Positions 1 to 25,673 of a DNA stretch of 45,256 nucleotides are shown piece after piece (position 1 is the stretch's first letter; the number at the start of each line of letters is the position of its first letter). The stretch lies in contig JAKLER010000003.1 of NCBI GenBank assembly GCA_022711615.1, positions 1 to 45,256 of the forward strand. The letters are read 5' to 3'. The stretch is from Acidobacteriota bacterium (GTDB lineage: Bacteria; Acidobacteriota; Thermoanaerobaculia; UBA5066). The notes under the pieces were generated by a model. That model had not been told where the DNA came from. It did not search any database and saw nothing but the letters and a program-made list of their open reading frames with translations. The translations under genes were made by a program, and so were the position numbers.

Positions 1-1
1 G

Positions 2-1834: not shown

Positions 1835-1843
1835 CCGGCCAGG

Positions 1844-7022: not shown

Positions 7023-7074
7023 GAGGCCTCCGTGAGGCGGGGAAGTCTACGGCAGCGGGAGGGAGACGGAGGCC

Positions 7075-8994: not shown

Positions 8995-9064
8995 GGCGGG
9001 AGGGTACCGCAACGACGCGGCGCGGCGCGGCCGGGACGTTGCCGGACGGCGCCGGGGGCGCGTG

Positions 9065-9070
9065 GATAAT
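9065..9070 (+). promoter_or_regulatory. -10-like hexamer, probable leaderless start
   Basis: GATAAT (5 of 6 to TATAAT) ends exactly 8 nt before the ATG at 9079. No Shine-Dalgarno sequence fits between them, so transcription would begin at or next to the start codon. The same spacing recurs at 20098 and 36003. Confidence 0.5.
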
Positions 9071-9078
9071 CCGTCCGA

Positions 9079-10197: not shown

Positions 10198-11371
10198 CGC
10201 CGCCTTCGCCTTCGAGGGCCTTTCGAAGGTCTATCGCCTCTATGCGTCTCCTCGCGACCGCCTCCTCGAGGCGCTCACGGGGCGCCCCCGGCACACCCCG
10301 GTCCACGCCCTCCGGGGCGTCTCCGCGACGGTTCCCCGCGGCTCGGTCCTCGGGGTCATCGGCGAGAACGGCTCCGGGAAGTCGACGCTCCTGAAGATCC
10401 TCGCGGGGACGACGGAGCCGACCTCGGGGACGATCCACCTCCCCGGGCGCGTCGCCGCGATCCTCGAGCTCGGCTCCTCGTTCCACCCCGAGGTGACCGG
10501 CCGCCGGAACGCGGTCCTCCAGGCCGCGCTCGCCGGCCTCACGAAGGCCGAGATCGCGGCGGCGCTCCCCGAGATCGAGGCCTTCGCGGAGCTCGGGGAC
10601 TTCTTCGACCGGCCGGTGAGGACCTACTCCTCGGGGATGACGATGCGCCTGGCGTTCGCCGTCGCGACGGCGGTCCTCCCCGACGTCGTGATCCTCGACG
10701 AGGCCCTGGCCGTCGGGGACGGCCGCTTCCAGAAGAAGTGCGTCGACCGCCTCCACGACCTCCGCTCGCGGGGCCGGACGATCTTCCTCTGCAGCCACGC
10801 CCTGTACTACGTCTCCACGCTCTGCGAGACGGCGATCTGGCTTCGGGACGGGGAGGTCGCGGCGCTCGGCGAGGCCCAGAAGGTCGTTCTCCAGTACGAG
10901 GAGTACCTCGCGCGGAAGGAGCAGGAGCGCACGGCGGCGGCGCCCGCGGCCCTCCAGGACTCGCTCGGCCGGTTCACGTCGATCCGGCTCCTCGACGGGG
11001 CCGGGAGGGAGTCGGCGGTCTTCGCGCCGGGGGACCCCTGGGTCCTGGAGCTCGCGTTCGAGGGGGACACGCCGGAGCGCCCCCTCCACGTCCACGTCGC
11101 GATCGTCACGCCGGACCAGGTCACCTGCTTCGTCGCCGACTCGAAGGTCTCGGGCACGGGGCCCTTCGTCGGGAAGGCGCGGCACGAGATCCGCCTGACG
11201 GTCGAGTCCCTCCCGCTCGCGAAGGGGGAGTTCATCCTCGTGATCTTCCTCGGCGACGAGAAGGGCCTCGCCCTCTACGACGCCCGGAGCGACGTCCGGT
11301 TCCGGGTGGAGTCGGACCGCTGGACGAGCGGCTTCATGACGGTCCCGGTCGGCTGGGAGACGCTCGGGTGA
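10190..11371 (+). CDS. Wzt-type ABC transporter ATPase with polysaccharide-binding tail
   Basis: A 393-residue ATPase predicted to drive export of a polysaccharide across the inner membrane. The nucleotide-binding domain (1-245) has Walker A GENGSGKST near 57, signature YSSGMTMRL and Walker B VVILDEALAVGD, typical of the O-antigen/teichoic acid export family. Residues about 255-393 form a beta-rich C-terminal domain like that of Wzt, which in the family recognises the glycan end. The GTG start at 10190 overlaps the upstream radical SAM gene by 8 nt, and the downstream GT4 gene starts within its stop codon (GTGA), so the three are probably co-translated. The Wzm-type permease partner is absent from the window. 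Confidence 0.88.
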   Translation: MSDAAFAFEGLSKVYRLYASPRDRLLEALTGRPRHTPVHALRGVSATVPRGSVLGVIGENGSGKSTLLKILAGTTEPTSGTIHLPGRVAAILELGSSFHPEVTGRRNAVLQAALAGLTKAEIAAALPEIEAFAELGDFFDRPVRTYSSGMTMRLAFAVATAVLPDVVILDEALAVGDGRFQKKCVDRLHDLRSRGRTIFLCSHALYYVSTLCETAIWLRDGEVAALGEAQKVVLQYEEYLARKEQERTAAAPAALQDSLGRFTSIRLLDGAGRESAVFAPGDPWVLELAFEGDTPERPLHVHVAIVTPDQVTCFVADSKVSGTGPFVGKARHEIRLTVESLPLAKGEFILVIFLGDEKGLALYDARSDVRFRVESDRWTSGFMTVPVGWETLG

Positions 11372-12441
11372 AGGTCGTCTACCTCCTCAACGGCACCGCG
11401 CTCTGCGGCGGGGTGAAGGTCGTCTACCAGCACGTCGCGATCCTGCGCCGCCTCGGGGTCGACGCCGAGGTCGTCAGCACGACGCCGCCGAGCGACTGGG
11501 CGCCGGAGTCGTGGTCGTTCTACCGGCAGGTCCCCGACCTGACGCCGGAGGCCATCGGGCCGGCCGACGTCGCGGTCGGCACGATGTACCACACCGTCCC
11601 GCAGGCGATGGCCGTACCGGGGGCGCGAGCGTTCCACTTCTGCCAGGCGTACGAGGCGATCTACGAGCCGGCGCGTCCCCTCTGGCCCGAGATCGAGGAG
11701 GTCTACCGCCTCCCGGCGACGAAGCTCGTCGTCTCGCCGCACCTCGCCGAGCTCGTGAAGGAGCTCTACGGGCAGGAGGCGGTCCACATCCCCCAGCCGT
11801 TCGACGCCGACGCGTTCTCGCCGCGGAGCGGGGCGCGCCCGCAGGACGGGACGTTCCGGGTCCTCCTGACGGGGCAGTGGAGCGTCCCGTTCAAGGGAAT
11901 TCCCTGGGCGACGGAAGCGCTCCGCGCGCTGAAGGGCGAGATCCCGCGGCTGCGGCTCGTGAGGATGTCGCAGGACGCCCCTCCCGAGGAGGTGGCGGCC
12001 TGGCCGGAAGCCGAGCGTCACATCTGGGTGCCTCCCGCCTTCGTCCCCGACGTCTATCGGAACGTCGACCTCTTCGTCGGTCCGTCCACGGAGGTCGAGG
12101 GCTTCGGCCTCCCGACGATCGAGGCGATGTCGTGCGGCCTCCCCACGGTCCTGACCGACATCGGGGCCTTCCGCGGCATCGACCCCGACGCGCGGGCCTC
12201 GATCCGGATCCCGGTCTTCGATTCGGGGGCGCTCCAGGCGGCGGTCCGCCGCCTCGCGGACGACCCGGGCCTCCGCGCGCGGCTCGGGACCGAGGGTCGG
12301 CGAATTGGCCGGACGTATCACGCCGGCCGGACGGGCGAGGCGCTCCTGGCGGCGTTCGGGGCACGACCGGCGGGCGCCGGGTCGGGTCTTCGTCGGGGAG
12401 CGCGGGCGCTGGCGTCCTTCGTCCGCGGCGGAGCCGGATGA
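11368..12441 (+). CDS. GT4-family glycosyltransferase
   Basis: A 357-residue GT-B fold enzyme expected to transfer a sugar from a nucleotide donor to a growing glycan in the cytoplasm. It starts with LLNGTALCGGVKVVYQH, resembling the N-terminal Gly-rich loop of GT4 enzymes. It carries the donor-site motif EGFGLPTIEA (E-x7-E) followed by CGLPTVLTD. The GTG at 11368 overlaps the Wzt stop by 4 nt. Residues after about 330 are Gly/Ala/Arg-rich and may be a disordered tail. Donor and acceptor cannot be told from sequence. The gap that follows (12442-12579) contains a short Arg-rich ORF but no clear terminator. Confidence 0.85.
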   Translation: MKVVYLLNGTALCGGVKVVYQHVAILRRLGVDAEVVSTTPPSDWAPESWSFYRQVPDLTPEAIGPADVAVGTMYHTVPQAMAVPGARAFHFCQAYEAIYEPARPLWPEIEEVYRLPATKLVVSPHLAELVKELYGQEAVHIPQPFDADAFSPRSGARPQDGTFRVLLTGQWSVPFKGIPWATEALRALKGEIPRLRLVRMSQDAPPEEVAAWPEAERHIWVPPAFVPDVYRNVDLFVGPSTEVEGFGLPTIEAMSCGLPTVLTDIGAFRGIDPDARASIRIPVFDSGALQAAVRRLADDPGLRARLGTEGRRIGRTYHAGRTGEALLAAFGARPAGAGSGLRRGARALASFVRGGAG

Positions 12442-12579
12442 CGCCGAAGCGCGGGGACCGGCGGACGCGCCCTGGCGCGCCGGCGGGTCTCGGGCGGGCG
12501 GAAGCCGACCCCGGGCGCTGGGATACCATCCCGAAGGAATGAGACGGAGACGCACCCATCGGCCCCGCGGGAGTCGCCC

Positions 12580-13500
12580 GTGGCCGACCTGAAGACGACC
12601 TGCGAGACGGTGGTCTTCTGCTCCTCGGCGGGCCACTGCCAGCTCGACTGCGACTACTGCATCATCCACCCCGTCGTGAAGCGCGAGCCGTCCCTCGTCT
12701 ACGAGGACGTGCGCTTCTTCCTCGACGAGGTCGGGACGCGGACGTTCTTCATCTTCTCCGGCAAAGGGGACTTCTTCGCCGGCTACCCGAAGCGGGAACG
12801 CTTCCTCGACCGTCTCCTCGACCACGACGTCGAGGTGGCGCTCGACGTGAACGGCGTCCTGCTGAACGAGTACCCGGAGCTCGCGGAGGAGAAGCTCGCG
12901 AAGGTCCGCGCGGTCAACCTGACGCTCCACTACAAGCAGGTGCGGGACAAGAGGGTCGAGAAGGCGTGGGAGACGAACGCGCGAACGATCCTCGAGAAGC
13001 ACCGGGGCGAGCTGATCCTCGGGACGATCTTCTCGCCGCTCCTCTCGGACCTCTGGGAGGAAGGGCTCGCGTACTACCGCGACACGGTCTTCGCGGCGAC
13101 CGGCCGGAAGGTCTGGGCGATCCGGGACTGCGACCGGCCATTCGACGCGGCGCAGGAGGAGCTCTTCGAGAGCCTCCTCGAGCGCTACGCGGCCGTCGTC
13201 GAGAAGGAGCACAAGGACGACTTCTCGGCCCCGTTCGCCGGGAGGGAGGCGGTCCTCTGCCCGGCCGGGCGCGACTACTTCCGGATCTGGAACGATGGAC
13301 GGGTGCAGGGCTGCCCCTGGATCCCCGGCCTCGCGGATCTCGGGAACCTGAAGGAGCGCCGCCTGGAGCGGCGGAACGCCCCCTTCCGCTGCACGACGCC
13401 GCGCTTCTGCGACTGCTACGACATCCACCAGCTTGGGAAGATGGGCTACGAGGACGCGACCCCGGCGCTGCCCGTCCTCTCCTCCGGGGCCGCGCGGTGA
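12580..13500 (+). CDS. radical SAM protein 2
   Basis: A 306-residue radical SAM enzyme with the cluster motif very near the N-terminus: CQLDCDYC (C20, C24, C27). The next residues, IIHPVVKREPSLVYED, and the stretch FIFSGKGDFFAGYPKRERF differ from the other two radical SAM proteins in the locus, so it is a separate subfamily. C-terminal cysteines in CPAGRDYF, GCPWIP and CTTPRFCDCYD suggest at least one auxiliary Fe-S site. The GTG start is followed directly by this core. The third radical SAM gene begins within its stop codon (GTGA), pointing to a coupled pair. I do not recognise the substrate. Confidence 0.8.
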   Translation: MADLKTTCETVVFCSSAGHCQLDCDYCIIHPVVKREPSLVYEDVRFFLDEVGTRTFFIFSGKGDFFAGYPKRERFLDRLLDHDVEVALDVNGVLLNEYPELAEEKLAKVRAVNLTLHYKQVRDKRVEKAWETNARTILEKHRGELILGTIFSPLLSDLWEEGLAYYRDTVFAATGRKVWAIRDCDRPFDAAQEELFESLLERYAAVVEKEHKDDFSAPFAGREAVLCPAGRDYFRIWNDGRVQGCPWIPGLADLGNLKERRLERRNAPFRCTTPRFCDCYDIHQLGKMGYEDATPALPVLSSGAAR

Positions 13501-14483
13501 GCGATGCCGTCCCGCAGGGCGCGGAGCTCGAGGTCCGCGCCCTCTTCCGGGACGAGGCGGCGGAGACCCACGCGGAGCGGCGGGCGCGGCTCGCCTCCGA
13601 CGATCCGGACCTCTGGGAGGGGATCGCCTTCCCGGTCGAGTTCGCGCTCGAGCTGGCGGCCGTCTGCAACCTCGCCTGCGTCATGTGTCCCGTGCCGACG
13701 ACGAGCCGGAAGCGGCGCCTGATGGACGAGGCGCTCTTCCGGAAGGCCGTCGACGAGGTCGCCTCGGAGACCGGCTTCGTCCTCTTCCCGCAGGGCTTCG
13801 GCGAGCCGATGCTCCACCCGAAGTGGGCGGAGCTCCTCGCCCACGCGAAGGCGAAGAGGATCGGGCCGATCGTCGTCCTGACGAACGGGACGCTCCTGGA
13901 CGAGCGGAACGTGGCGCGGCTGCTCGACCTCGACCTCGACGCCCTGGTCGTCTCGATCGACGGCGTCGAGCCGGAGACCTACGCGGCCGTCCGGGTCGGA
14001 GGGGACCTCGGCGTCGTCGAGGCGAACGTCCGGCGATTCCTGGCCGCGCGCGGCCCGGCGCCGCGTCCGCGCCTCGTCCTCCGGATCATTCGGATGAAGG
14101 AGACCGCGGCCCAGATCTCCGCCTTCTTCGAGCGATGGCGGCCGCTCCTCGGGCCGGCCGACGAGATCGCCATCAACGAGTTCAACGACTGGGCGGGGAA
14201 GGTCGAGGACCGGAGCGACGCGCCACGTCCGCAGCCGGCCGCCGCGGCCGCGGGCCGCCCGCCGTGCCGGATGCTCTGGATGAACCTCTCCGTCCACGCC
14301 GACGGCAAGGTCTCGGCGTGCTGCCACGACAGCGAGGACGAGCTGATCGTCGGCGACCTGTCGAAGGGGGACACCGTCCGCGGGATCTGGGAGGGGCCGG
14401 CGCTGGCGCGGCTGCGGCAGGTCCACCGCGAAGGGCGCTTCGAGGAGCTGCCGATCTGCCACGCCTGCCGCAACCAGGCGTAG
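13497..14483 (+). CDS. radical SAM/SPASM protein 3
   Basis: A 328-residue radical SAM enzyme with CNLACVMC (C57, C61, C64). LTNGTLLDE and SIDGVEPETY are typical of the SPASM group acting in peptide or glycan modification. C-terminal cysteines occur in CRMLW, SACCHDSEDELIVGDL and ICHACRNQ. This tail pattern (CC...D..E.L.VGDL) closely parallels that of radical SAM protein 1, so these two belong to the same subfamily. The GTG at 13497 overlaps the preceding stop by 4 nt. The gene converges with the GNAT gene, leaving only 19 bp between stops. Confidence 0.85.
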   Translation: MSDAVPQGAELEVRALFRDEAAETHAERRARLASDDPDLWEGIAFPVEFALELAAVCNLACVMCPVPTTSRKRRLMDEALFRKAVDEVASETGFVLFPQGFGEPMLHPKWAELLAHAKAKRIGPIVVLTNGTLLDERNVARLLDLDLDALVVSIDGVEPETYAAVRVGGDLGVVEANVRRFLAARGPAPRPRLVLRIIRMKETAAQISAFFERWRPLLGPADEIAINEFNDWAGKVEDRSDAPRPQPAAAAAGRPPCRMLWMNLSVHADGKVSACCHDSEDELIVGDLSKGDTVRGIWEGPALARLRQVHREGRFEELPICHACRNQA

Positions 14484-14502
14484 ACGGCGGCGCAGCCGGC
14501 GC

Positions 14503-15468
14503 TCAGAAGACGTCGTGGTCGGCGAAGCGATAGTCGAACGACGAGCCCGGAGCGAGGAAGTCGAAGCCGTCGGCGATCGGGTGCATCAGGAGGACGGTGT
14601 CCGAGAGCTCGGGCACGAACGCGAGCTCTCCCTCGAGACGCGAGGCGAGGAGCCCTCGCTGGGGGGAGCGAAGGACCATCCGGTCCGCCGCGACCGCCCC
14701 GAGCCCCTCCTGGATCGCCGCGAGCAGGTCGACGAGCGTGCCGTCGGACTCGGAGGCGACCTGGAGGTCGACGAGGGCGACGCGCCCCTCGCGGATCGCG
14801 GCGACGGCGTAGCCGCGAGAAGTCCCGCGCCAGTCGAGGAGCTGGAACGTTCGATAGGCGAAACCGGGCCGGGAGAAGCGCCAGGCGAGCGTCCGGACCG
14901 AGCGGTCGGTCCGCCAGCCGGGCCGCGCGTGGAGGAGCTCGGCGAGCGGCTCGTGCGCGCGTCCGAACGGCTCCCCCTCGCTCACGCGGAGGAGCCGGCG
15001 CCGCAGCCGTCCGAGGAGCGGCGGTGCGTCGAGCCGGCGGCCCCGCTCCGCGCACGGCTCGGCCAGGACGCAGCCGAAAAGGCGCTCCTCGATCTTCCTC
15101 GCGCGCTCGTTCGGGAACCCGAAGTCGAAGAGCGTCCCGGCCTCCGCGTTGATCCGCCGGAAGAGCTCGCCGAGGCGCTTGAACATCCCGGCCCGTCCGA
15201 GCGCGCGCGAGTCGGGGCGCGTCATGACGTCGACGACGGTGTTCCCCTGCTGGTCCATCCCCTCGCCCCGGTAGCGCGTCCCGAGGGCCCCGATGAAGCC
15301 GAGCGCACGGCCGTCCTCGATCGCGAGGGCGCTGAGAGCCGGGTGGGGGTTGACGTCGTACTTCCAAGCGAGGTCGGCGGCGTTCGCCGGCGCCTTGAAC
15401 GCCACCTCGAAAAGCTCCAGGATGGCGGCCCGATCGCTCTTCCCGGCCGGTCGGAATTCGATCGCCAC
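14503..15468 (-). CDS. GNAT-family acetyltransferase-like protein
   Basis: A 321-residue protein whose N-terminus (IEFRPAGKSDRAAILELFE) and ALGFIGALGTRYRGEG...VDVMTRPDSRALGRAGMFKRL fit the acetyl-CoA-binding half of GNAT enzymes. Residues beyond about 150 form a second, less clear domain, so this may be one of the two-lobed acyltransferases found in glycan loci. The GTG start at 15468 is favoured because the protein reads directly into the GNAT motif and a TACCCT hexamer lies 10 nt upstream. The first 28 codons and the upstream region are duplicated at 18899-19019. The substrate may be an amino sugar, but that is inferred from context only. Confidence 0.7.
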   Translation of the reverse strand: MAIEFRPAGKSDRAAILELFEVAFKAPANAADLAWKYDVNPHPALSALAIEDGRALGFIGALGTRYRGEGMDQQGNTVVDVMTRPDSRALGRAGMFKRLGELFRRINAEAGTLFDFGFPNERARKIEERLFGCVLAEPCAERGRRLDAPPLLGRLRRRLLRVSEGEPFGRAHEPLAELLHARPGWRTDRSVRTLAWRFSRPGFAYRTFQLLDWRGTSRGYAVAAIREGRVALVDLQVASESDGTLVDLLAAIQEGLGAVAADRMVLRSPQRGLLASRLEGELAFVPELSDTVLLMHPIADGFDFLAPGSSFDYRFADHDVF

Positions 15469-15504
15469 GGCGCGCGGAAGGGTACCACCCGATGATCTCG
15501 ACCG
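15384..15504 (+). repeat. 121-bp direct repeat, left copy
   Basis: Matches 18899-19019 at 115 of 121 positions with no gaps. It contains the first 28 codons of the GNAT gene (minus strand), the divergent intergenic region and the first codons (ATGATCTCG) of the plus-strand gene at 15492. The two copies bracket a 3.4-kb segment holding two convergent GT-C genes. Confidence 0.92.
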
Positions 15505-17423
15505 CTGCCCTCTCCGGCTCGAGAACGTCGACGCCGCCTCAGCCTCCGGAGTCGCTCCGTTCGGGCGAGCCGAGGAGGGACGCGGGTCCGCCGGCCGATG
15601 AAGCCGGCGGCCCCGAGGCTCGCGACGGGTGCGCACCGGCGCCCGCTGGGGGGCGCGGGAGACGTCCGCGAAGGCGCGCCGCCGGCCTGATCGCCGTCGC
15701 CCTCGTCGCGATCGCCGGCTGGGTCGCCGGCGAGCACTCGCGCCGAAGCACGTGGTGGACGATCGACGAGCCGGCGCACGTCAAGGCCTCCCGGGAGCTG
15801 CGCGAGGGACGAGGCGTCGTCTCGAATTTCGAGCACCCCGTCCTGATGAAGGTCCTCGGCGCGGCCGGTCTCGGGGCGGCGCCCGCGGGGACCGCCATCG
15901 AGACCGTCCGCAGGGCCCGGAGGCTCTTCCCCGTCGTCTTCGGCGCGCTCCTCCTCGTGACGGGACTGTGGGTCCGCGCGAGAGCCGGAGCGGCGTGCGG
16001 GGCGTTCGCCGCGGGAATTCTCCTGATCGAGCCGTCGTTCCGCTCGAGCTCGGGAATCGTCCACACCGACGTCCTCCTGACGTTCTTCCTCGTGTCGGCG
16101 GCTGCGGCCCTCGACCGGTCCACGCGAGGCCGCCGCGTCTCGGTCGTCGGCCTCGTCCTCTCGGGACTCCTCTACGGCGGGGCGCTCGTGTCGAAGTACT
16201 CCGCTCTCCCTTTCCTGGCGGCGTTCGCCGGCGTGGCCTGGCTTCGCGTCGCCGCCGCGGGCCGGTCGCCCGTCTCGCGGGCGCTCCGAGCCGGCCCTCT
16301 GGCCCGTGCCGCCGCCCTGACGGCAGTGACCGTCGTGACGCCGGCCCTCGCGACTCTCGTCGCCGTGCAGCAGGCCGTGACCGGGCCGACGCCGCCCGAG
16401 GCTCTGCGCGCGGCGATCCGGCGGAGCATCGCGGACCGCGGATTCCACCCGAGGACCTCCGCGACGGAGCTCCTCTCCACGGCGGCGGAACGGCTGCCGC
16501 GGGGACTCGCGGCGTACGCAGCGGGGCTCGAGTGGGTCGAGAAGGGAAGCCGTCCCGGCGGTCGGCTGAACTACCTGTTCGGGGAGGTCTCCGGAGACGG
16601 GTTCCTCCTGTATTTCCCCGTCGCGCTCGCCCTCAAGATGACGACGGCCACCGTGGCCTTCTTCGGCCTGGCGCTTCTGGCGGCGCCGGGACTCGTGGTC
16701 CGGGCCCTCCGGCGGGGCCGGAGCCGCCTCGTGGGCGTCGCCTGCGCCCGGACCTTCGTCCCCCTGACGCTCGGCCTGGCCTATTTCGTCCTCGCGATGG
16801 CGGCGAGGCTGAACATCGGGGTCCGTCACGTGATGCCGGCCACGGCGCTTCTCGTCGTCGGGGTCCTGATCGGGCTGCGCGCGGTCTCGCCCTTCCGGCC
16901 TCGCGCTCGCGCGCTCCTCCTCGCAGCGACGGCGCTCCTGGCGGCGGTCGAGGCCGGGCCGGCCTGGGGGCGGGAGACGAGCTTCGGGAACGTGATCGCC
17001 GGTGGAGCCCGCGGCCTCCGTGGAAAGCTCTCGGACTCGAACGTCGACTGGGGCGCGGGACAAGGACGGATGTTCGAGCGGGTCCGGCGCGGGGACCTCG
17101 GTCGCGTCGCGGCCCTGACGTTTCCGCTCTGGCTCGATCCGGACCAGCGCGCCCAGCTCGCGATCGACGCCCTCGAGGCCCCCGTGACGGCCGAGAGGAT
17201 CTGCTCCTACGATTCCGTCTTCGTCTCCGTCTACGTCTGGGATTCCCTCGAGGCCCTGATGCGGAACCGCGAGACTCACGCAACGTTCGAGAGCCTGAGG
17301 AGGTCCTACGGCCCGGCCCTGGCCGTGCGCGGCTGCGCAGCCGCCGTGGAGGAGGTCGGGCCGGAGTACCTCCTGTTCCGGGTGGGGAGGCCGGCCGCGC
17401 GGGGCCCTTCGACCACGAGGTAG
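15492..17423 (+). CDS. GT39-like membrane glycosyltransferase
   Basis: A 643-residue integral membrane protein. Residues 1-65 are Pro/Gly/Arg-rich, probably cytoplasmic and disordered. A first helix (about 66-82) leads into TIDEPAHVKASREL and FEHPVLMKVLG, the DEP and HP motifs of polyprenyl-phosphate-sugar-dependent GT-C enzymes. Further marks are GLLYGGALVSKYSALPFL, LNIGVRHVMPA and LSDSNVDWG. It should transfer a sugar from a lipid carrier on the periplasmic side. The only in-frame ATG/GTG/TTG before the first helix is 15492, and that start lies inside the 121-bp repeat, so the promoter and first codons are shared with the GT2 gene at 19007. The atypical N-terminus may therefore be a junction product. 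Confidence 0.75.
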   Translation: MISTAALSGSRTSTPPQPPESLRSGEPRRDAGPPADEAGGPEARDGCAPAPAGGRGRRPRRRAAGLIAVALVAIAGWVAGEHSRRSTWWTIDEPAHVKASRELREGRGVVSNFEHPVLMKVLGAAGLGAAPAGTAIETVRRARRLFPVVFGALLLVTGLWVRARAGAACGAFAAGILLIEPSFRSSSGIVHTDVLLTFFLVSAAAALDRSTRGRRVSVVGLVLSGLLYGGALVSKYSALPFLAAFAGVAWLRVAAAGRSPVSRALRAGPLARAAALTAVTVVTPALATLVAVQQAVTGPTPPEALRAAIRRSIADRGFHPRTSATELLSTAAERLPRGLAAYAAGLEWVEKGSRPGGRLNYLFGEVSGDGFLLYFPVALALKMTTATVAFFGLALLAAPGLVVRALRRGRSRLVGVACARTFVPLTLGLAYFVLAMAARLNIGVRHVMPATALLVVGVLIGLRAVSPFRPRARALLLAATALLAAVEAGPAWGRETSFGNVIAGGARGLRGKLSDSNVDWGAGQGRMFERVRRGDLGRVAALTFPLWLDPDQRAQLAIDALEAPVTAERICSYDSVFVSVYVWDSLEALMRNRETHATFESLRRSYGPALAVRGCAAAVEEVGPEYLLFRVGRPAARGPSTTR

Positions 17424-17448
17424 AGCGGGGGGGCGCCGGCCGCGCGTC

Positions 17449-18828
17449 TCAGCGGGCGAAGTGGTACGGCGGGCGCAGCCGCGAGCCTCCCGGGCCGGAC
17501 ACCGCGCGGAGAGCGGGGTCGGTAAGCGACAGGTCCCGAGCCGCGTTCGCGCAGAAGAGAGCCATCGCGAGGGCGGCGACGATCCTCCGCCCGCGACTCC
17601 ACGCCGCCGGGACTCGGGACGCACCGAGGAGACCCGCCGCCGCGCAGAGGGCGGGATAGGCCGGGAGGAGGAAACGCGGGTCGCCGATCGAGACCTGGTA
17701 CGGGAGGAGGACCGCGGCGGTCATCGCCGCCGCCAGGCGGAAGGCCGGCAGGTGTCCGGAACGCGCGAAAGCCAGGAGGGCGACCGCGAGCAGGATCGGC
17801 AGGGAGAGCGCGACCGTCGCGTAGGTCGCAAGGACCACGGATCGCGGTCTCTCCCCGGCCCAGCCGTGCCCGTAGACGTAGATCAGGTCCCGTTTGGGCG
17901 GAGCGAAGTTGTAGGAGGCGCGGGCGAGGAAGAGGCGCACCTGCTGGAGAGGATGGTCCCGGAGGAACGCCCGGACGCGCGGCGCGAGGAGTCTCGCCTG
18001 GGCCTCCTTGTCGAGGTCGACGCCCGGGACGACGGGCATCGGGTCGATCCGCCCGGTCGCGTCCGGGTTGTTGCCGACCCAGAGGTTGTAGACGTCGTTC
18101 GGACAGCCGATCCGGAAGACCCCCGTCGTCCTCCATCGCGAGACCGCGTGAAGGAACAGTCCCGAGAAGGCGACGAGGACGACGCCGAGCGAGGCAGCGA
18201 GGCGCCGGGAGAGGGACCCGCCGCGAGCGGGCCGGGGAAGGAGGACGAGGACGGCGAGCGGAACGGCGAGGAGCACCAGTCCCGTTCGGACGAGCGCGAG
18301 GCCCGAGACGACGAGCGCCGCGGAGAGCAGCCTCCAGGCCGCGGGTCTGCGCGACCCGTCGAGGGAGAGCCAGAGAACCAGCGCGACTCCCGGCAGCGCG
18401 AGGTTCTCGCTGGCGAGAGTCGAGGTCGCGAGGACGGCGTAGGCGTTGAAGGCGAGGAGGGCGGCGGCGAGGGCGCCGGCACTGGTACCGGCGACCCGGC
18501 GAATCGAGTCTCCGGCGAGAAGAGCGGCCCCCGCGCCGAGGACGGCCTGCAGGAGGTAGACGATCCGGGGCCGGACGCCGAGCGCTTCGTAGACGAGCCA
18601 GAGGAACCACGCGTAGCCGGGAGGGTGATGGGACGTCGGAACGGAGGCCCCGTTCGCCGCTGCGAGGGCCATCGCGTGGTAGCCGTCCACGTCGAAGAAG
18701 CCGGGCTGAAAGCCGATGGCGTGGACGAACCCGAGCCGCAGCGCGAGACCGGCCGTGGAGATCAGCGCGAGGAGAGCGAATCCGCTCGCCGGTGCGGGAG
18801 CCGGTCGGCCGTGGTCGGGGAAAGCCAT
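17449..18828 (-). CDS. GT39-like membrane glycosyltransferase, second
   Basis: A 459-residue membrane protein with about ten hydrophobic segments. After the first helix it has FFDVDGYHAMALAAA (acidic catalytic loop position) and SHHPPGYAWFLWLVYEALG, then TSTLASENLALPGVALVLWL and GDPRFLLPAYPAL, a pattern shared with dolichyl/polyprenyl-phosphate mannosyltransferase relatives. It converges with the other GT-C gene (25 bp between stops). Its ATG overlaps by one base (TGATG) the stop of a 51-codon ORF made from a duplicated GNAT gene start, so translation is likely coupled to that remnant. Sugar specificity is unknown. Confidence 0.78.
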   Translation of the reverse strand: MAFPDHGRPAPAPASGFALLALISTAGLALRLGFVHAIGFQPGFFDVDGYHAMALAAANGASVPTSHHPPGYAWFLWLVYEALGVRPRIVYLLQAVLGAGAALLAGDSIRRVAGTSAGALAAALLAFNAYAVLATSTLASENLALPGVALVLWLSLDGSRRPAAWRLLSAALVVSGLALVRTGLVLLAVPLAVLVLLPRPARGGSLSRRLAASLGVVLVAFSGLFLHAVSRWRTTGVFRIGCPNDVYNLWVGNNPDATGRIDPMPVVPGVDLDKEAQARLLAPRVRAFLRDHPLQQVRLFLARASYNFAPPKRDLIYVYGHGWAGERPRSVVLATYATVALSLPILLAVALLAFARSGHLPAFRLAAAMTAAVLLPYQVSIGDPRFLLPAYPALCAAAGLLGASRVPAAWSRGRRIVAALAMALFCANAARDLSLTDPALRAVSGPGGSRLRPPYHFAR

Positions 18829-18983
18829 CAGGAGCCGCGCGTCGCGACTCGAGCGGCGTCCGACGTGAAGACGGCCCGCCGGTCGAGAAGCCCGGCGCTC
18901 GCCGGCGCCTTGAACGCCACCTCGAAGAGCTCCATGATGGCAGCCCGATCGCTCTTCCCGGCCGGTCGGAACTCGATCGCCAC
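18828..18983 (-). pseudogene. truncated GNAT gene start, now a 51-codon leader ORF
   Basis: It starts with GTG at 18983. Residues 1-28 (MAIEFRPAGKSDRAAIMELF and onward) match the start of the intact GNAT protein at 15468, with only an I/L-to-M change at position 17 among the first 20. After AFKAPA the sequence leaves the GNAT frame homology, and the ORF runs 23 more codons to a TGA that overlaps the ATG of the GT-C gene. It cannot be a working acetyltransferase, but it keeps the original promoter region and may feed ribosomes to the downstream gene. Confidence 0.8.
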
Positions 18984-19019
18984 GGCGCGCGGAAGGGTAG
19001 CACCCGATGATCTCGGCCG
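18899..19019 (+). repeat. 121-bp direct repeat, right copy
   Basis: Second copy of 15384-15504, in the same orientation at a constant offset of 3515 bp. Six mismatches: A/G in the GNAT codons, one in the intergenic GGTAC/GGTAG, and one in codon 4 of the plus-strand gene. Here the plus-strand reading frame (MISAVFVSY) is natural for a GT2 enzyme. Confidence 0.92.
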
Positions 19020-20068
19020 TCTTCGTCTCCTACCGATCCGCGGCGCTCGCCGAGCGCGCGATCGCGACGTTCCGCGGGGAGGCCCGCCGGACGGGGCGGG
19101 AGGCCGAGGTGGTCGTCGTGGTGAACTCGGGCGACGGCGCGGAGCGGGACGCCCTCGTCCCCCACGCCGACCGCGTCCTCCTCCCTCCGCGGAACCTCGG
19201 CTTCGCCGGAGGGCTGAACGCCGGCATCGCGGCGGCTCGGGGCGGCACGCTCCTCCTCGCGAACCCCGACCTTCTCTTTTGCGAGGGCTCCGTCGCGGCC
19301 CTCGTCGACGCGGCCGAGGCCGGGGGCATCCTCGCAGCCGGGCCGGCGCTCTACGCCGACGGCGCGCGAAGCGTTCTCCTTCCCCCGGCGGAGGAGGGGC
19401 GCCCGGAGGAGCTCGCGCGGAGAACGCTCGCGGCCGACCCGGCCCGGGCCGCCCGTGTCTTCCGGCGCGACGCGCGGCGGGCGGCGGTCCAGGCGGAGCG
19501 CGCCGCGGCCGGCGAGAGCGCTGCCGTCCGCGGCCTCTCGGGGGCGCTCGTCGCGGTCACGCGCGCCGCGCTCGAGGCGGTCGGGCCGTTCGACGAGGCG
19601 TACCCGCTCTACTACGAGGAGAACGACTGGCAGAGAAGGCTCCTGGCCTGCGGGGGAGGGCTCGTCTACGTCGGCGGCGCGCACGTCGTCCACCTCTTCG
19701 CGCAGAGCACGAAGACCGAGCCGCGGGTCGCCGCCTGGTTCGCGGAGTCCGAGCAGCGCTACTACGCGAAGCACTTCGGCGAGACGGGGCGGAGGGGCCT
19801 CGCCCGCCTCGCATCCTGCGCGCCGTTCGAGGCGCCGCCGCTCCCCGTCAGGGACGGCCTCTCCTGGGACGACGCGGCCCTCGCGGCGGTCGCGATCTCG
19901 CCGTTCCGGCACTTCCGGCCGTTCGCGCTCGCGCTCGTGCCGCCCGGCGAGAGACGCTGGACGCCCCCGGCCGACCTCGTGGCGGCGCACGCCGGCGAGG
20001 CGCTCTTCGTCCGCGCGTTCGCGCGGACGACGGGCTCGACCCTCGCCGAGGCCCGCCTCGCCGGCTGA
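19007..20068 (+). CDS. GT2-family glycosyltransferase
   Basis: A 353-residue GT-A fold enzyme. It has the GT2 opening ISAVFVSYRSA, the nucleotide-binding region LPPRNLGFAGGLNAGIAAA, the metal-site equivalent LLLANPDLLF and the acceptor-side YYEENDWQRRLLA. The arrangement is closest to rhamnosyltransferase-like members of the family. It is probably cytoplasmic and adds one sugar to a lipid-linked glycan. The ATG at 19007 sits in the right copy of the 121-bp repeat, facing away from the GNAT remnant. The next gene, a large GT2 fusion, begins 43 bp after its stop. Confidence 0.85.
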   Translation: MISAVFVSYRSAALAERAIATFRGEARRTGREAEVVVVVNSGDGAERDALVPHADRVLLPPRNLGFAGGLNAGIAAARGGTLLLANPDLLFCEGSVAALVDAAEAGGILAAGPALYADGARSVLLPPAEEGRPEELARRTLAADPARAARVFRRDARRAAVQAERAAAGESAAVRGLSGALVAVTRAALEAVGPFDEAYPLYYEENDWQRRLLACGGGLVYVGGAHVVHLFAQSTKTEPRVAAWFAESEQRYYAKHFGETGRRGLARLASCAPFEAPPLPVRDGLSWDDAALAAVAISPFRHFRPFALALVPPGERRWTPPADLVAAHAGEALFVRAFARTTGSTLAEARLAG

Positions 20069-20111: not shown

Positions 20112-23100
20112 GTGGCTCCCCCCTCCCCGGACCCCTTCCCCGAGCGACGACTCCTCCCGTACGAGACGACCCGCCTCGAGGCGCGGCGAGTCCTCGTCCT
20201 GGCGCCGCACGCCGACGACGAGACGTTCGGCTGCGGCGGGACGCTCGCCGCGCTCGTCGACGGCGGCGCGCGGGTCGACGTCCTCGTCGTCACCGACGGC
20301 GCCGGGGACGAGCCGGACGCCGAGGCACGGCGGCTCGTCGGCGCGCGGCGCCTGGAGGAGACGCGCGAGGCGCTCCGCCGGCTCGGCGGCGGCGCGGCGC
20401 GCTGCGCATTCCTTCCCGACCGTGGGCTCGGGCGCACGGGCGACCCTCTCGCGGCGGCGATCGAGAGCGGCCTCCTCGCGGCCCTTCCCGACCTCGTCTT
20501 CGTCCCCTCGCCCGTGGAGGTTCACCCCGATCACCGAGCCGTCGCGGAGGCGTTCCTCTCCCTCTTCGCGGGCGACGCCGGGCGCCGCCTCGTCGCGGCG
20601 CTTCCCGAGGGGGCCAGGGCGGCCTTCTTCGAGGTCTCCCAGCCGTTCCGCCCGAACGTCCTCGTCGACGTCTCGATGACGATCGCCCGCAAGGAGGCCG
20701 CGGTCGCGGCGTTCGTCTCCCAGCTCGACGGCCACGACTACGCGGCCTTTGCGCGGGGGCTGGGGCAGTACCGGAGGATGAGCCTTCCCCGGAGCGTGGC
20801 GTCGGCCGAGGGGTTCTTCCTCGTGGCGCTCGCGGAGCTGCCCGCCATCGACGTTCACCGTCTCGCGCGGGCGATCGGCCCAACGCTGTCGCCGGGGGAG
20901 CTCTTCCCGGCCACCTCCCCGGAGCTGCCGACGGTCGAACCGGCCGCCGGTCTTCCGGTCGGGAGGGGAGACGGCACGCCGCTCGTCAGCGTCGTCCTCC
21001 GGACGAAGGACCGACCGGAGCTCCTCGCCGAGGCGCTCGCGAGCGTCGCGGCGGAAACGGGCGTGCCGCTCGAGGCGGTCGTCGTGAACGACGGCGGCGC
21101 CGACGTCTCGGGCGTCCTCGCGCGCTTCCCGGGTCTCCGCCTTCGGCTCGTCGACCTGCGACCGGGGCGCGGCCGGGCGGCGGCGGCGAACGCGGGGGTC
21201 GAGGCCGCGACCGGACGGTTCGTCCACTTCCTCGACGACGACGACCTCCTCCTCCCGGGCGGGCTCCCGGCGCTCGCCGCGGAGGCGCGGGAGGCCGAGG
21301 TCGTCTACGGGCGCGTCGAGGCGTTCCGCTGGAGCGGGACAGGGGAGGGACGGCTCCGGACGCCGTTCCGTTCCTTCGCCGAGCCGTTCGACGACGCGGC
21401 GCTCCTCCTGGAGAACTTCATCCCGATGAGCGCGCCGCTGCTCCCGCGGGAGGCGCTGCTCGCGGCCGGCGGGCTCGACGCGGCGCTGGAGAGATTCGAG
21501 GACTGGGACCTCTTCCTCCGCCTCTCGCAGACGCACCGCTTCCGGCTCGTCGACGTCCCCGTCTCGGAGTACCGCGTCTTCCCGGGGCACTTCGTCGACG
21601 ACCCCGACGCCGCGACGACGCAGGAGAGGGACCGCGTCGCCGTCCTGCGCAAGCACGCCGGCCGCTACGGGCCGGAGGCGCTCTCGGCGATCCTCCTCCA
21701 CGTCAAGAAGGACCTCCTGCCGAGGGAGGTCCGCCGGGAGGTCGCCGCGGTCGAGACGCTCCTGTCTCGCGCGACGGAGGAGTCGGTCCGCGAGAGGGAC
21801 CGCCTCGAGGCGGAGCGGGCCGACGCGGAACGGCGCGCGGGACGGACGCTCGCGACGCGGGCCTCGGTCGTCGTCGTCAACTTCGACGGGCGGCACCACC
21901 TCGAGAAGTGCCTTCCCGCCCTCGAGGCGTCGGACCCGAAGCCGGGAGAGGTGATCCTCGTCGACAACGGCTCCTCCGACGACAGCGTCGCGTGGGTCCG
22001 CGAGCGGCACCCGGCCGTGAAGGTGCTGCCGATGGGGGCGAACCTCGGCTTCGGCGAGGCGAACCGGCGCGGCGCGCTCGAGGCGCGCGGCGACTTCCTC
22101 GTCCTCCTGAACTCGGACACCGTCGTCGAGGAGGGCTGGCTCGCGGGGCTCCTCGCGCCCCTCGACGCCGAGCCCGAGATCGCGGCGACCTGCTCGACGC
22201 TCCGGCTGCTGGCGACGCCGGAGCTCCTGAACGGCCTCGGCGGCGGGATGACCCGCCTCGCCTACGCGTACGACCACGGGTACCGCTTCCCGTACGCGCC
22301 ATGGGACCCGTCGGGGGAGGAGCCGCGCCGGCACGACGTCCTCTTCCCGACGGCCGCGGCGATGGCGATGCGGCGGCACGAGTTCTTCGGCCTCGGCGGC
22401 TTCGACCCGGCGTTCTTCATGTACCACGAGGACGTCGACCTCGGCTGGAGGCTCTGGCTCCTCGGCCGGCGCGTCGTCGTCTGCCGGGACTCGGTCGTGA
22501 GGCACGCCTTCCTCGGGACCTCGAAGGCCGTCCGGGGCCTCGACTGGAGGCTGAAGCTCGGGGTCCGCCACGCCGTCCGCTCGATCCTGAAGTACGTCGA
22601 GCCGGTCGAGGCGGCGAAGGTCCTTCGGTGGCACGCGGTGCTCCTCGCGCGGGCGGGTGCCTGGCGCCTCCTCGCGCACGCCGTCCTCTGGAACCTCCGC
22701 CACCTGCCGGGGACGCTCCGCCTCCGCGCCGAGACGAACGCGAGGCGCAAGCGGTCCTCGGAAGAGCTCCGCCGCGCGGGCCTCGTCCTTCGGGCGCTGC
22801 AGCCGCCACCGCCGCCGGAGGCGCCGCGCTTCCGCGAGGTCCGGTGCGACGCCTGGATCGTCTCGAACGTCCTCCTCCCGGGCGAGCCTTCCGGCGAGAG
22901 CCGTCTCGGCTGGGGCTGGTACGGGCCGGAGCACGACGGGACGGCCTCGTTCCGCTGGACCGCCGGCGACGCCCGGCTGGGGCTGCGGGTCGCGCCGGGC
23001 GCGGAGGGGCGGCTGAAGATCGTCGCCCTCGGCAGCCCGGCGGCGCCCGCGGGCCCGCTCCGGGTGACGTGCAACGGGCGGGAGACGACGGCCGAGCTCG

Positions 23101-24185
23101 AGCCCGGCGCGTGGCGCAACCTGGAGGTCCCGGTCTCCGCCGCCGCGGACGGATTCCTCGACGTCGTTCTTCGATCGCCGTCCGGCGTTCCGGACGACGC
23201 ACAGGGGAGCTGGGACTTCCGGAGGCTCGGCGCGGGCGTCCGGAGCGTCGCGTTCGTTCCCGCGGCGCCCGAGGAACGGCACCCCCTCGCGTCGGTCTCC
23301 GTCGTCATCCCGACGTACGAGCGGAAGGCGGTCCTCGAGGAGACCGTCCGCGCGCTGGCGTCGCAGACCGTCCGGCCCCTCGAGGTGATCGTCGTCGACG
23401 ACGGCTCGAAGGACGGGACGACGGAGCTGCTCCATCGGCTCCGGGAGGAGCTGGCCGACCGGCTCGACCTCGTCCCGCTCCGCCAGCCGAACCTGAAGCA
23501 GGGACGGGCGCGGAACCTCGGCGTCGCCCACGCGAGGGGGGCGCTCGTCCTCTTCCTGGGAGACGACACGATCCCCGAGCCCTCCTGCGTCGCCGAGCAC
23601 CTCGCCGCGCGCGCGTCCCGTCCCGGCGCCTGCGCCGTCATCGGCTTCACCGGCTGGCACCGGGAGAGGATGCGGGTGACGCCGTTCCTCGACTTCGTCA
23701 ACGGCCACGGCCCGCAGTTCTCGTTCGACCTCCTCCGCGACGGCCAGGAGGTCCCGTTCACGACGCTCTACACCTCGAACGTCTCGATCCCCCGCGACCT
23801 CCTCGGCGAGGAGCCCTTCGACCACCGCTTCACGTCGTACGGCTGGGAGGACTGCGAGCTCGGCTGGCGCCTTTCCTCGGCGGGGCTCCCCATCGTCTAC
23901 CGGAAGGCCGCCGCCACCCGGCACGTCCACCCGCAGACGATGGCGCAGTTCCTCGCGCGCCAGGCGCACGTTGGCCGGGCGATCGACGTCCTCTACGAGA
24001 TCCACCCGGAGCTCGAGGGGAACCGCTGGCTTCCGCCGCCGCGCCCGCGCTTCCGCCACCGGGCCTTCTCGTTCGCCTATCGAGCGCTGGGGCGGGTGGC
24101 CGCGCGCCTCGACTCGGCCGGGGTGCCGCTCCCGCTGCGCGTCTACCACGCGCTCGTGGCCTGGGCCTTCCACTCCGGCCGCTGA
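20112..24185 (+). CDS. PIG-L deacetylase fused to three GT2 domains
   Basis: A 1357-residue multidomain protein. Residues about 20-260 are a PIG-L/LmbE zinc deacetylase with APHADDE (H33, D35, D36) and HPDH (H138, D140, H141). GT2 domain 1 (about 288-530) has SVVLRTKDRPELL and LDDDD at 375-378. GT2 domain 2 (about 582-860) has VVVVNFDGRHHL, NSDT with D669, and YHEDVDLGWRLW. Residues about 905-1050 form a beta-rich, carbohydrate-binding-like spacer (SRLGWGWYGPEHDGTASFRW). GT2 domain 3 (about 1060-1357) has SVVIPTYERK, GDDT at D1151-D1152 and WEDCELGWRL. There are no membrane helices, so it should work in the cytoplasm. It could deacetylate an N-acetyl sugar and add several residues to one chain. 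The frame is intact throughout, so the fusion is not an annotation artefact. Confidence 0.88.
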   Translation: MAPPSPDPFPERRLLPYETTRLEARRVLVLAPHADDETFGCGGTLAALVDGGARVDVLVVTDGAGDEPDAEARRLVGARRLEETREALRRLGGGAARCAFLPDRGLGRTGDPLAAAIESGLLAALPDLVFVPSPVEVHPDHRAVAEAFLSLFAGDAGRRLVAALPEGARAAFFEVSQPFRPNVLVDVSMTIARKEAAVAAFVSQLDGHDYAAFARGLGQYRRMSLPRSVASAEGFFLVALAELPAIDVHRLARAIGPTLSPGELFPATSPELPTVEPAAGLPVGRGDGTPLVSVVLRTKDRPELLAEALASVAAETGVPLEAVVVNDGGADVSGVLARFPGLRLRLVDLRPGRGRAAAANAGVEAATGRFVHFLDDDDLLLPGGLPALAAEAREAEVVYGRVEAFRWSGTGEGRLRTPFRSFAEPFDDAALLLENFIPMSAPLLPREALLAAGGLDAALERFEDWDLFLRLSQTHRFRLVDVPVSEYRVFPGHFVDDPDAATTQERDRVAVLRKHAGRYGPEALSAILLHVKKDLLPREVRREVAAVETLLSRATEESVRERDRLEAERADAERRAGRTLATRASVVVVNFDGRHHLEKCLPALEASDPKPGEVILVDNGSSDDSVAWVRERHPAVKVLPMGANLGFGEANRRGALEARGDFLVLLNSDTVVEEGWLAGLLAPLDAEPEIAATCSTLRLLATPELLNGLGGGMTRLAYAYDHGYRFPYAPWDPSGEEPRRHDVLFPTAAAMAMRRHEFFGLGGFDPAFFMYHEDVDLGWRLWLLGRRVVVCRDSVVRHAFLGTSKAVRGLDWRLKLGVRHAVRSILKYVEPVEAAKVLRWHAVLLARAGAWRLLAHAVLWNLRHLPGTLRLRAETNARRKRSSEELRRAGLVLRALQPPPPPEAPRFREVRCDAWIVSNVLLPGEPSGESRLGWGWYGPEHDGTASFRWTAGDARLGLRVAPGAEGRLKIVALGSPAAPAGPLRVTCNGRETTAELEPGAWRNLEVPVSAAADGFLDVVLRSPSGVPDDAQGSWDFRRLGAGVRSVAFVPAAPEERHPLASVSVVIPTYERKAVLEETVRALASQTVRPLEVIVVDDGSKDGTTELLHRLREELADRLDLVPLRQPNLKQGRARNLGVAHARGALVLFLGDDTIPEPSCVAEHLAARASRPGACAVIGFTGWHRERMRVTPFLDFVNGHGPQFSFDLLRDGQEVPFTTLYTSNVSIPRDLLGEEPFDHRFTSYGWEDCELGWRLSSAGLPIVYRKAAATRHVHPQTMAQFLARQAHVGRAIDVLYEIHPELEGNRWLPPPRPRFRHRAFSFAYRALGRVAARLDSAGVPLPLRVYHALVAWAFHSGR

Positions 24186-24305: not shown

Positions 24306-25673
24306 ATGACCGATCCGAAGCTCTCCCGCACATCCTCCCGGACGGCGACCTGGTCGCGCCCGGGCCTCGCCGGCGCGCTCGTCGCGCTGCCGGCTCTCCT
24401 TCTCGCGCCGACCGCCTTCGCCCAGCGCGAGCCGGGGACGGCCTCGCCGAGCACGGGGTCCGCGCCGGCTCCGTCCTCCTCGGCCTCCGCGCCGTCCCGC
24501 TCCTCCCCGTCGCCGAGCTACTCGGCGCCGGCGCCTTCGGCCCCGCGGAGCGCTCCGGCGCCCTCGGCGGGCTCTCCTTCGACGCCGCGCCGCGCGGCCG
24601 CCCCGAGGGAGACGAGCGCGGGAGCGCCGGCGCGTCCGGGACGGGGCGTCGTCGCCGCCGAGCCGCGCGACGGACGGAGCGGCGGCTCGACGTCCGCGAC
24701 CGCCGGCGGCGGGGGCGGGAGGGTCCCCGGGGTCGTCGCGGCGCATCCACGCGGGCCGGGCTCCGGGTCGCACCGGCACCCGCGGCGCCGGTACTACTCG
24801 CCGTACACCGGTTGGGGCGGGACGTCGTGGTGGTGGGGCGGTCCCTGGGACTGGTGGTGGTGGGGGAGCCGCTTCGGCCCGTACCACTGGGGCTTCGGCG
24901 GTGTCGTCATCGTCGAGGACTACAGCCCCGACCCGTACCGCTACGCCCGGGTCGACACCGACGTCAGCCCGGAAGCGGCCGAGGTCTACCTCGACGGCAC
25001 GTTCATCGGCTCGGCCGACGACTTCGACGGCTATCCCGACTTCCTCTGGCTGGAGGCCGGCAAGTACACGATCGAGTTCCGCCACCCCTCGTACGAGACC
25101 CTCAAGCACGAGGTCGAGGTTCGGCCCGGACAGGCCCTTCGCTTCCGGGACGACCTGAAGCTCGAGCCCGGCAAGAAGCGGCTCGAGGCGACCGAGCCCC
25201 CGCGCCGGGGCACGCCCCACGGGCGGGTCTTCGGCAAGCCCGAGGAGCCCCGCCGGGACCGGACGGGACGCTTCGAGGCGCGAGCCGAGGCCGATCGCGA
25301 GCGCGACCGGGAAGAGCTCGACGACCTCGATGAGCTCGAGGAGCTCGCCGAGGAGCTGAAGGAGGCGGACGAGGACATCGCCCCGGCGCCGAAGCCCCGC
25401 ACCGACGCGAAGGAAGGGCGCTCCGCTCGCGAGGCGCTCCCCGCCGAGCGAGGCCGGCTGCGCTTCGAGATCCAGCCGGCCGACGCGGCGGTCTACCTCG
25501 ACGACGAATACATCGGCACCGGCAAGGAGCTCGCCGGGCTCCGCCGGGGCGTTCCGGCCGATGCCGGCAGGCACACCGTCTCGGTCGTCCGCCCGGGTTT
25601 CGTCACGAAGACGATCGAGGTCGAGGCGAAGCCGGGAGCGGCGATCGACGTCGTCGTCGAGCTCGAGAAGTAG
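24306..25673 (+). CDS. exported PEGA-domain protein
   Basis: A 455-residue secreted or surface protein. Residues 1-40 are a signal peptide (hydrophobic run ending at TAFAQ). Residues 40-165 are a Ser/Pro/Ala/Gly-rich low-complexity region. A striking Trp/Gly-rich patch follows (about 168-200, SWWWGGPWDWWWWGS). Two PEGA-like beta repeats are seen: VDTDVSPEAAEVYLDGTFIG (about 217-290) and FEIQPADAAVYLDDEYIG (about 388-455). They are joined by an acidic helical, possibly coiled-coil segment rich in Glu/Asp/Arg (about 315-360). PEGA domains are thought to bind surface polymers, which fits a role next to the glycan locus. The ATG at 24306 was chosen for its GGAGG-like site and the signal peptide; an in-frame ATG at 24225 is less likely. 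The 120-bp gap before it (24186-24305) shows nothing clear. Confidence 0.78.
   Translation: MTDPKLSRTSSRTATWSRPGLAGALVALPALLLAPTAFAQREPGTASPSTGSAPAPSSSASAPSRSSPSPSYSAPAPSAPRSAPAPSAGSPSTPRRAAAPRETSAGAPARPGRGVVAAEPRDGRSGGSTSATAGGGGGRVPGVVAAHPRGPGSGSHRHPRRRYYSPYTGWGGTSWWWGGPWDWWWWGSRFGPYHWGFGGVVIVEDYSPDPYRYARVDTDVSPEAAEVYLDGTFIGSADDFDGYPDFLWLEAGKYTIEFRHPSYETLKHEVEVRPGQALRFRDDLKLEPGKKRLEATEPPRRGTPHGRVFGKPEEPRRDRTGRFEARAEADRERDREELDDLDELEELAEELKEADEDIAPAPKPRTDAKEGRSAREALPAERGRLRFEIQPADAAVYLDDEYIGTGKELAGLRRGVPADAGRHTVSVVRPGFVTKTIEVEAKPGAAIDVVVELEK

Follow-up and report, generated by a model that had tools for sequence, protein, structure and literature searches.

One gene of the analysed DNA (hereafter the window, the whole stretch of 45,256 nucleotides) encodes a sugar deacetylase, three sugar transferases and a domain resembling sugar-binding modules in a single polypeptide, and comparison with its relatives indicates that this is a real fusion. 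With a probability of roughly 0.6, we consider its product to be a single-chain cytoplasmic module which assembles a cell-surface glycan of the kind that depends on an ABC exporter (Wzm/Wzt). This reading builds on the observed domains with their intact motifs, on their conservation and adjacency, on the probable repetition of the fusion, and on the type of locus; from these we infer a common substrate, the order of steps, the sugars, re-acylation and glycan binding. The parts of the gene are as follows.

20112-24185, + strand: fused gene, 1357 aa (PIG-L, GT2-A, GT2-B, helical linker, beta-sandwich, GT2-C)
20193-20561, + strand: PIG-L (LmbE-type) zinc de-N-acetylase core (Pfam, E 9.5e-23; HADDE and HPDH motifs)
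20967-21671, + strand: GT2 domain A, residues 286-520 (DDDD and EDWD motifs; alignment)
21672-21851, + strand: charged linker from GT2-A to GT2-B that drifts freely (dN/dS)
21852-22619, + strand: GT2 domain B, residues 581-836 (NSD replacing DXD; HEDVD motif)
22620-22826, + strand: helical linker, residues 837-905 (AlphaFold2 model)
22827-23276, + strand: beta-sandwich spacer, residues 906-1055, with a fold like that of carbohydrate-binding modules (AlphaFold2, fold matches)
23283-24011, + strand: GT2 domain C, residues 1058-1300, followed by C-terminal helices (GDD and WED motifs)

The gene starts with GTG and translates without interruption over 1357 aa. Its frame is also open in the 5' direction as far as 19455, but this extra stretch overlaps the GT2 gene just before it, which is read in a different frame. 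The combination of one PIG-L and three GT2 domains in a single protein, proposed in a preliminary description made from the sequence alone, is borne out by this frame and by Pfam, in which residues 28-150 matched PF02585 with 81.5 bits against a curated cut-off of 28.2, and three separate stretches matched Glycos_transf_2 (PF00535, E 2.8e-64). Catalytic motifs had been reported for all four enzyme domains, and alignments of relatives confirmed them as kept and conserved. The zinc site of the PIG-L domain (H33-A-D35-D36, H138-P-D-H141) and the GT2-A residues D375-D378 and E463-D-W-D466 are invariant or nearly so; N667-S-D669 and E773-D774 of GT2-B, and G1150-D-D and W1245-E-D of GT2-C, are conserved. 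Each GT2 domain thereby carries a DXD-type metal motif and an ED motif for the catalytic base (DDDD/EDWD, NSD/HED and GDD/WED, respectively), and the motifs are intact also in the probably independent fusions of a second clade. An NXD motif occurs as well in one GT2 module of Klebsiella O7 ORF6 (PMC11231755). Among solved structures, relatives of the PIG-L domain include diacetylchitobiose deacetylase and BshB, and the nearest to GT2-A is PglI. NCBIfam names such as EpsD, MftF and PglI were considered for sugar assignment and discarded, every match lying far below cut-off.

A beta-rich spacer between the second and third GT2 domains had likewise been described, and structure prediction with AlphaFold2 yielded a confident beta-sandwich for residues ~905-1055 (pLDDT 91.2). 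In Foldseek searches its nearest solved folds were carbohydrate-binding jelly rolls, the PDB matches being mostly carbohydrate-binding modules (CBMs) or CBM-bearing enzymes. The jelly-roll beta-sandwich is common to the spacer and to CBM6, CBM22, CBM35 and CBM36 (E about 1e-4 to 1e-3), at a low sequence identity of 6-19% among the matches listed and with modest TM values of about 0.4-0.5, which denote likeness of fold alone and are not proof of binding. Pfam, NCBIfam and PHROG profiles gave no match to the spacer, nor did CBM family profiles; its sole sequence-profile match in the PDB, a designed protein at E 0.065, was taken as chance.

The reading frame is not open by chance: four more members of the host family keep the protein at 91-66% identity, with a whole-protein dN/dS of 0.21-0.44 in the three pairs measured. 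Purifying selection, as judged by dN/dS, acts on every catalytic domain, and the two linkers are near 1 in most comparisons (0.31, 1.06 and 0.99 for the GT2-A/GT2-B linker against three relatives). An artefact, be it an error of assembly or binning or a decayed, functionless read-through frame, is extremely improbable: the source genome is a draft of 546 contigs, but eight more draft genomes share the architecture, four of them in the host family at 66-91% identity, and selection acts on each catalytic domain, so that by sequence comparison the conserved relatives already refute it.

Five genomes from the host family (f1) have the same four-domain order, as do four of genus g66, which belongs to another family (f6) of the same class. 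In the PIG-L tree a single clade of fused proteins was rejected (AU p = 1.3e-5), and in the core tree it received a p-AU of 0.029. As the PIG-L phylogeny sets the two fused groups apart, the fusion probably arose twice; a less probable alternative is an ancient fusion followed by many later splits. Elsewhere the parts are unfused and often encoded by neighbouring genes, some with 4-base overlaps: at locus L103, genes for PIG-L-GTA, a GT4, GTB and GTC follow in a row with such overlaps, and at L010 a PIG-L gene overlaps a GTA-GTB-spacer-GTC gene by 4 bases. In L108, from the same order as the host, an unfused set occupies the same chromosomal locus and is followed by PEGA, HolB, Tmk, SpoIIE and TPR genes in the order of the host locus. 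Splitting into parts that lack joint function, named in the preliminary description as grounds for abandoning its proposal, is thus not what relatives display, since in many of them the split parts stay adjacent and the fusion probably formed twice. At many split loci (L012, L013, L015, L117) PIG-L was not found in the stretch examined, and GTB-spacer-GTC is therefore evidently able to function without a linked PIG-L. PIG-L-GTA is more constant as a unit than the GT modules downstream of it, which are exchanged between GTB-spacer-GTC, two other GT2 domains, and WbsX with RgpF. By eye, unfused PIG-L-GTA proteins have long C-terminal tails rich in Arg, Glu and Leu. As three gammaproteobacterial proteins also combine PIG-L with three GT2 domains, the composition is rare and not unique.

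The surroundings of the gene in the window point to the type of locus.

9079-10197, + strand: radical SAM/SPASM protein, conserved neighbour
10190-11371, + strand: Wzt-type ABC exporter ATPase (ABC_tran and a C-terminal Wzt_C carbohydrate-binding domain)
11368-12441, + strand: GT4-type glycosyltransferase
12580-13500, + strand: radical SAM protein (below the Pfam cut-off)
13497-14483, + strand: radical SAM/SPASM protein
14503-15468, - strand: GNAT-type acyltransferase, recurrent partner of PIG-L
19007-20068, + strand: upstream GT2 glycosyltransferase, conserved neighbour (Pfam; relatives)

The GNAT family adjoins PIG-L in several phyla, and in 28 of 61 genomes the two are no more than 10 kb apart; near the PIG-L genes of families f9 and f6 it was not found. 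In several relatives the gene run includes Wzt relatives as well, and on a Methyloprofundus plasmid a PIG-L-GT2 fusion is accompanied by Wzm, Wzt, radical SAM and GNAT genes. No Wzm permease was seen among those window genes that were scanned with Pfam, which did not cover every gene; a PF01061 (ABC-2 permease) search of the host's own genome listed none on this contig and several elsewhere. These missing permease and GNAT genes, like the split loci in which PIG-L was not found and the modest fold similarity of the spacer, weigh against the assembly-module reading.

In the proposed role, the GT2 domains would extend a lipid-linked chain sugar by sugar, and PIG-L would take the N-acetyl group off an N-acetyl-amino sugar, most likely while this sugar is at the growing end. 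The GNAT encoded at this locus may then put an acyl group back on the exposed amine. The beta-sandwich, placed as it is between GT2-B and GT2-C, probably either grips the growing glycan there or serves as a rigid spacer, and the fusion would fix the ratio and ensure the closeness of enzymes that are encoded elsewhere by adjacent, sometimes overlapping genes. Possible, though somewhat doubtful, is a stronger form, in which the protein would be a self-contained assembly line that extends a chain, de-N-acetylates it and extends it again before it leaves the protein, while its jelly roll keeps the glycan in place between two of the transferases. Such a protein would be the glycan equivalent of a multi-domain synthase and would have come about more than once through fusion of adjacent, overlapping genes. 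The preliminary description had likewise suggested that the assembly could deacetylate an amino sugar and add up to three sugars without releasing the chain; this is supported in part, by the catalytic motifs kept in all four enzyme domains.

Two other roles were weighed against the assembly of an exported glycan. The four domains could belong to one pathway and yet differ in the molecule they act on or in the stage at which they act; PIG-L would prepare either a small precursor or the chain's first amino sugar and the transferases would build the chain later, in which case the fusion would serve co-expression and complex formation and not the hand-over of one chain. The separation of PIG-L from GTB-spacer-GTC in many genomes, and the constancy of PIG-L-GTA while the modules behind it are swapped, are consistent with this; the occurrence of the same four-part fusion in two distant clades suggests instead that the closeness of all four parts matters, and we regard such a division of stages as rather unlikely. 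Distinctly improbable is a role in protein glycosylation or in making a short, fixed oligosaccharide (e.g. a core-type, S-layer or flagellin glycan) in place of an exported polysaccharide. PglI, the solved structure closest to GT2-A, does come from a protein-glycosylation pathway, and a PIG-L gene stands beside a GNAT gene in the Pseudomonas LPS core cluster (PMC8005017), but Wzt with its Wzt_C domain in the window, the Wzt relatives in the gene runs of several relatives, and Wzm and Wzt alongside the plasmid-borne relative argue against it.

A specific chemistry is predicted for the single-chain glycan-assembly module by a fusion that probably happened more than once and by a GNAT that keeps recurring as its partner: while the glycan is being assembled, an amino sugar would be de-N-acetylated and then perhaps re-acylated. 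A comparable step, suspected but unproven, involves DnpA in the Pseudomonas LPS core (PMC10579960). The idea can be tested with few genes, as relatives are present in the cultured Ectothiorhodospira magna and Rhabdochromatium marinum.

The preliminary description knew of no characterised enzyme with this domain order. This fits the literature searched, from which most subscription journals were absent and in which no characterised enzyme joining a PIG-L de-N-acetylase to glycosyltransferases was found; the make-up as such is shared with the gammaproteobacterial proteins, and single-chain enzymes with several GT modules are well known from ABC-exporter-dependent O-antigen assembly (PMC11231755). 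WbdA, WbbB and Klebsiella O7 ORF6 (PMC11231755) likewise have several GT modules per protein, spread over one or several proteins depending on the relative, as here, and come from loci with a Wzt bearing a carbohydrate-binding domain; the O7 protein resembles the fused protein in having DXDD and NXD motifs in its GT2 modules and an internal carbohydrate-binding-like domain. In contrast to this type, which has a methyltransferase-kinase or Kdo-transferase terminator, the fused protein has a built-in PIG-L de-N-acetylase, three GT2 modules, a beta-sandwich placed between two GT modules, and no long coiled coil that could be seen without a predictor. The best PDB sequence-profile match to the GT2-B/GT2-C core was the chondroitin polymerase KfoC (K4CP, E 1.5e-36), which also has two GT2 domains in one chain; the likeness is local to the domains, the overall arrangement differs (TM 0.2-0.3), and KfoC has neither a deacetylase nor a match to the beta-sandwich. 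Foldseek with the core at full length gave local GT matches only, and at such low overall TM values (0.2-0.3) we claim no global structural homologue for the core. With MshB, BshB, diacetylchitobiose deacetylase and DnpA of Pseudomonas aeruginosa, the last of which is also found with a GNAT-type gene (PA5003) in a glycan cluster, the protein shares the PIG-L family and its zinc-site motifs, whereas here PIG-L is fused to glycosyltransferases.

The open reading frame at 20112-24185 (+) was translated as an unbroken frame of 1357 residues with a GTG start. Searches against Pfam identified a single PIG-L domain (E 9.5e-23) and three Glycos_transf_2 stretches, so that the preliminary description of one protein with a PIG-L de-N-acetylase and three GT2 domains proved correct, including its coordinates. 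The domains are arranged in the following order:

residues 28-150, PIG-L (Pfam), first domain
residues about 286-520, GT2-A, second domain
residues 581-836, GT2-B, third domain
between GT2-B and the spacer, helical linker
residues 906-1055, beta-rich spacer, between the helical linker and GT2-C
residues 1058-1300, GT2-C, followed by C-terminal helices

By alignment, the motifs of PIG-L (H33-x-D35-D36, H138-P-D-H141) and GT2-A (DDDD, 375-378; EDWD, 463-466) are retained. GT2-B carries NSD (667-669) and HEDVD (772-776), GT2-C GDD (1150-1152) and WED (1245-1247), with the key residues of both invariant or almost so in a 16-sequence alignment; in the Klebsiella O7 polymerase, one GT2 module likewise has NXD replacing DXD (PMC11231755). 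The closest solved relatives are TT1542, diacetylchitobiose deacetylase and BshB for PIG-L, PglI for GT2-A, and the K4 chondroitin polymerase for the core formed by GT2-B and GT2-C. The PIG-L and GT2 domains have dN/dS ratios of 0.09-0.44, and the spacer of 0.16-0.49; of the linkers, PIG-L/GT2-A gave 0.8-1.8 and GT2-A/GT2-B about 1 in two of three comparisons. All parts are present, intact and conserved, and they are linked.

The spacer has no family match in Pfam, NCBIfam or PHROG. It was modelled within the GT2-B-spacer-GT2-C core (pLDDT 89.8, pTM 0.87) and on its own (pLDDT 91.2), and most of its Foldseek matches were carbohydrate-binding modules, from families 6, 22, 35 and 36, or else enzymes bearing them (E from 7e-5, TM about 0.4-0.5). 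Further Acidobacteriota proteins contain weak sequence relatives (best E 1e-8 to 1e-15), and many of these proteins, judged by eye, look like multi-pass membrane glycosyltransferases; in many such proteins (L141-L156), distant relatives of the spacer form the end. The domain seems to represent a widespread unnamed family. The predicted carbohydrate-binding-module-like fold of the spacer is thus well supported, and we infer that it would bind glycan.

The window is part of a 4.5-Mb draft genome of 546 contigs, with close relatives recorded as Acidobacteriota / Thermoanaerobaculia. The four-domain protein was found in this genome and four more of its family (91%, 88%, 73-74% and 66% identity to the window protein; the 88% relative is spread over two contigs, and the start of the 73-74% one lies off its contig), as well as in four genomes of one genus of another family (L157-L160), where contig ends cut two of the four. 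Elsewhere the parts occur in other arrangements:

L009, L010, L014: PIG-L and A-B-spacer-C as separate proteins
L116, L117: A and B-spacer-C as separate proteins
L012, L013, L016: B-spacer-C
L015, Rhabdochromatium: B-spacer-B-spacer-C
L103-L111: PIG-L-A, then B and C consecutively

The tandem frame of L015 (5989-10215, 1409 residues) belongs to a cultured strain, Rhabdochromatium marinum DSM 5261. As B-spacer-C extends to Chromatiales, Betaproteobacteria and Desulfonatronospira, its distribution suggests horizontal transfer. PIG-L and three GT2 domains are also combined in three proteins of Gammaproteobacteria, from Methylococcales, Halothiobacillus and Ectothiorhodospira magna; their frames span 1222-1310 residues, and a spacer profile search did not find the spacer in them.

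In the PIG-L tree, the fused proteins of each family branch together with stand-alone PIG-L proteins from that same family; constraining all fused proteins to one clade cost 94 log-likelihood units (p-AU 1.3e-5), and the core tree gave the same, weaker result (p-AU 0.029). Two separate origins of the four-domain fusion are the simplest reading of these trees, a single old fusion with several later splits being a possible alternative.

Where unfused, the parts are often closely coupled. In L103, PIG-L-A, a GT4-type gene, B and C are four genes, each overlapping by 4 bases; the GT4-type gene also sits between A and B in L108, a relative of the same order, and PIG-L overlaps A-B-spacer-C by 4 bases in L010. 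By our count, PIG-L-A and B lie at most 10 kb apart in 28 genomes, with C also within range in 13. The unfused genes of L108 are flanked as in the window, upstream by radical SAM, Wzt, GT4 and GT2 genes and downstream by PEGA, HolB, Tmk, SpoIIE and TPR genes (33-53% identity), and the fused gene therefore occupies the place held in L108 by separate genes. The window PEGA-domain protein (24306-25673), directly 3' of the fused gene, has a low-complexity N-terminal half, Ser/Pro/Ala-rich and Gly/Trp-rich, and its relative in L108 holds the same position.

Genes upstream of the fused gene encode three radical SAM proteins, a Wzt-type ATPase that carries Wzt_C, a GT4, a GNAT acyltransferase and a further GT2. 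The radical SAM genes (9079-14483) fall within one glycan locus, and the first also adjoins Wzt, as a conserved neighbour, in a second family of this order. An insertion of roughly 3.4 kb within 15378-19030 contains two genes:

15492-17423, +, PMT-like membrane glycosyltransferase
17449-18828, -, PMT-like membrane glycosyltransferase

It is bounded by direct repeats of 138 nt (15378-15515 and 18893-19030, 91% identical), the second leaving a stub of the GNAT gene start, and is missing at this site in two close relatives (L119, L171).

GNAT relatives stand directly upstream of PIG-L in several phyla. Among the 61 genomes of the relative search, we counted such a relative at most 10 kb from PIG-L in 28; family f9, and most of f6 (the other family with the fusion), had none within that distance. 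In the Pseudomonas LPS core cluster, PIG-L adjoins a GNAT-annotated gene (PMC8005017), and the PIG-L protein DnpA has been speculated to strip an acetyl group before an unidentified enzyme adds L-alanine (PMC10579960). A Methyloprofundus plasmid encodes a single 1327-residue PIG-L-GT2-WbsX-RgpF protein near Wzm, Wzt, radical SAM and a GNAT of the same family as the one in the window (E 2.9e-86); the plasmid (AP023241.1, stretch covered 1-20000) derives from a mussel gill sample, and the protein is annotated as hypothetical.

Most likely, the fused protein would extend a lipid-linked glycan in the cytoplasm, with PIG-L de-N-acetylating an amino sugar at the growing end and the product destined for ABC-type export; the freed amine may be re-acylated by the GNAT. 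We infer that the domains would share a common chain, held by the spacer, as we do the order of the steps and the sugars.

The literature searched yielded no description of a PIG-L-glycosyltransferase fusion. In ABC-exporter-dependent O-antigen assembly, multi-module glycosyltransferases that include carbohydrate-binding and terminating domains are well documented (PMC11231755), and the fused protein probably works like these. It differs from them in its built-in de-N-acetylase, its three GT2 modules and the jelly roll separating two of these, and is a variation on known multi-module glycosyltransferases rather than a new kind of enzyme.
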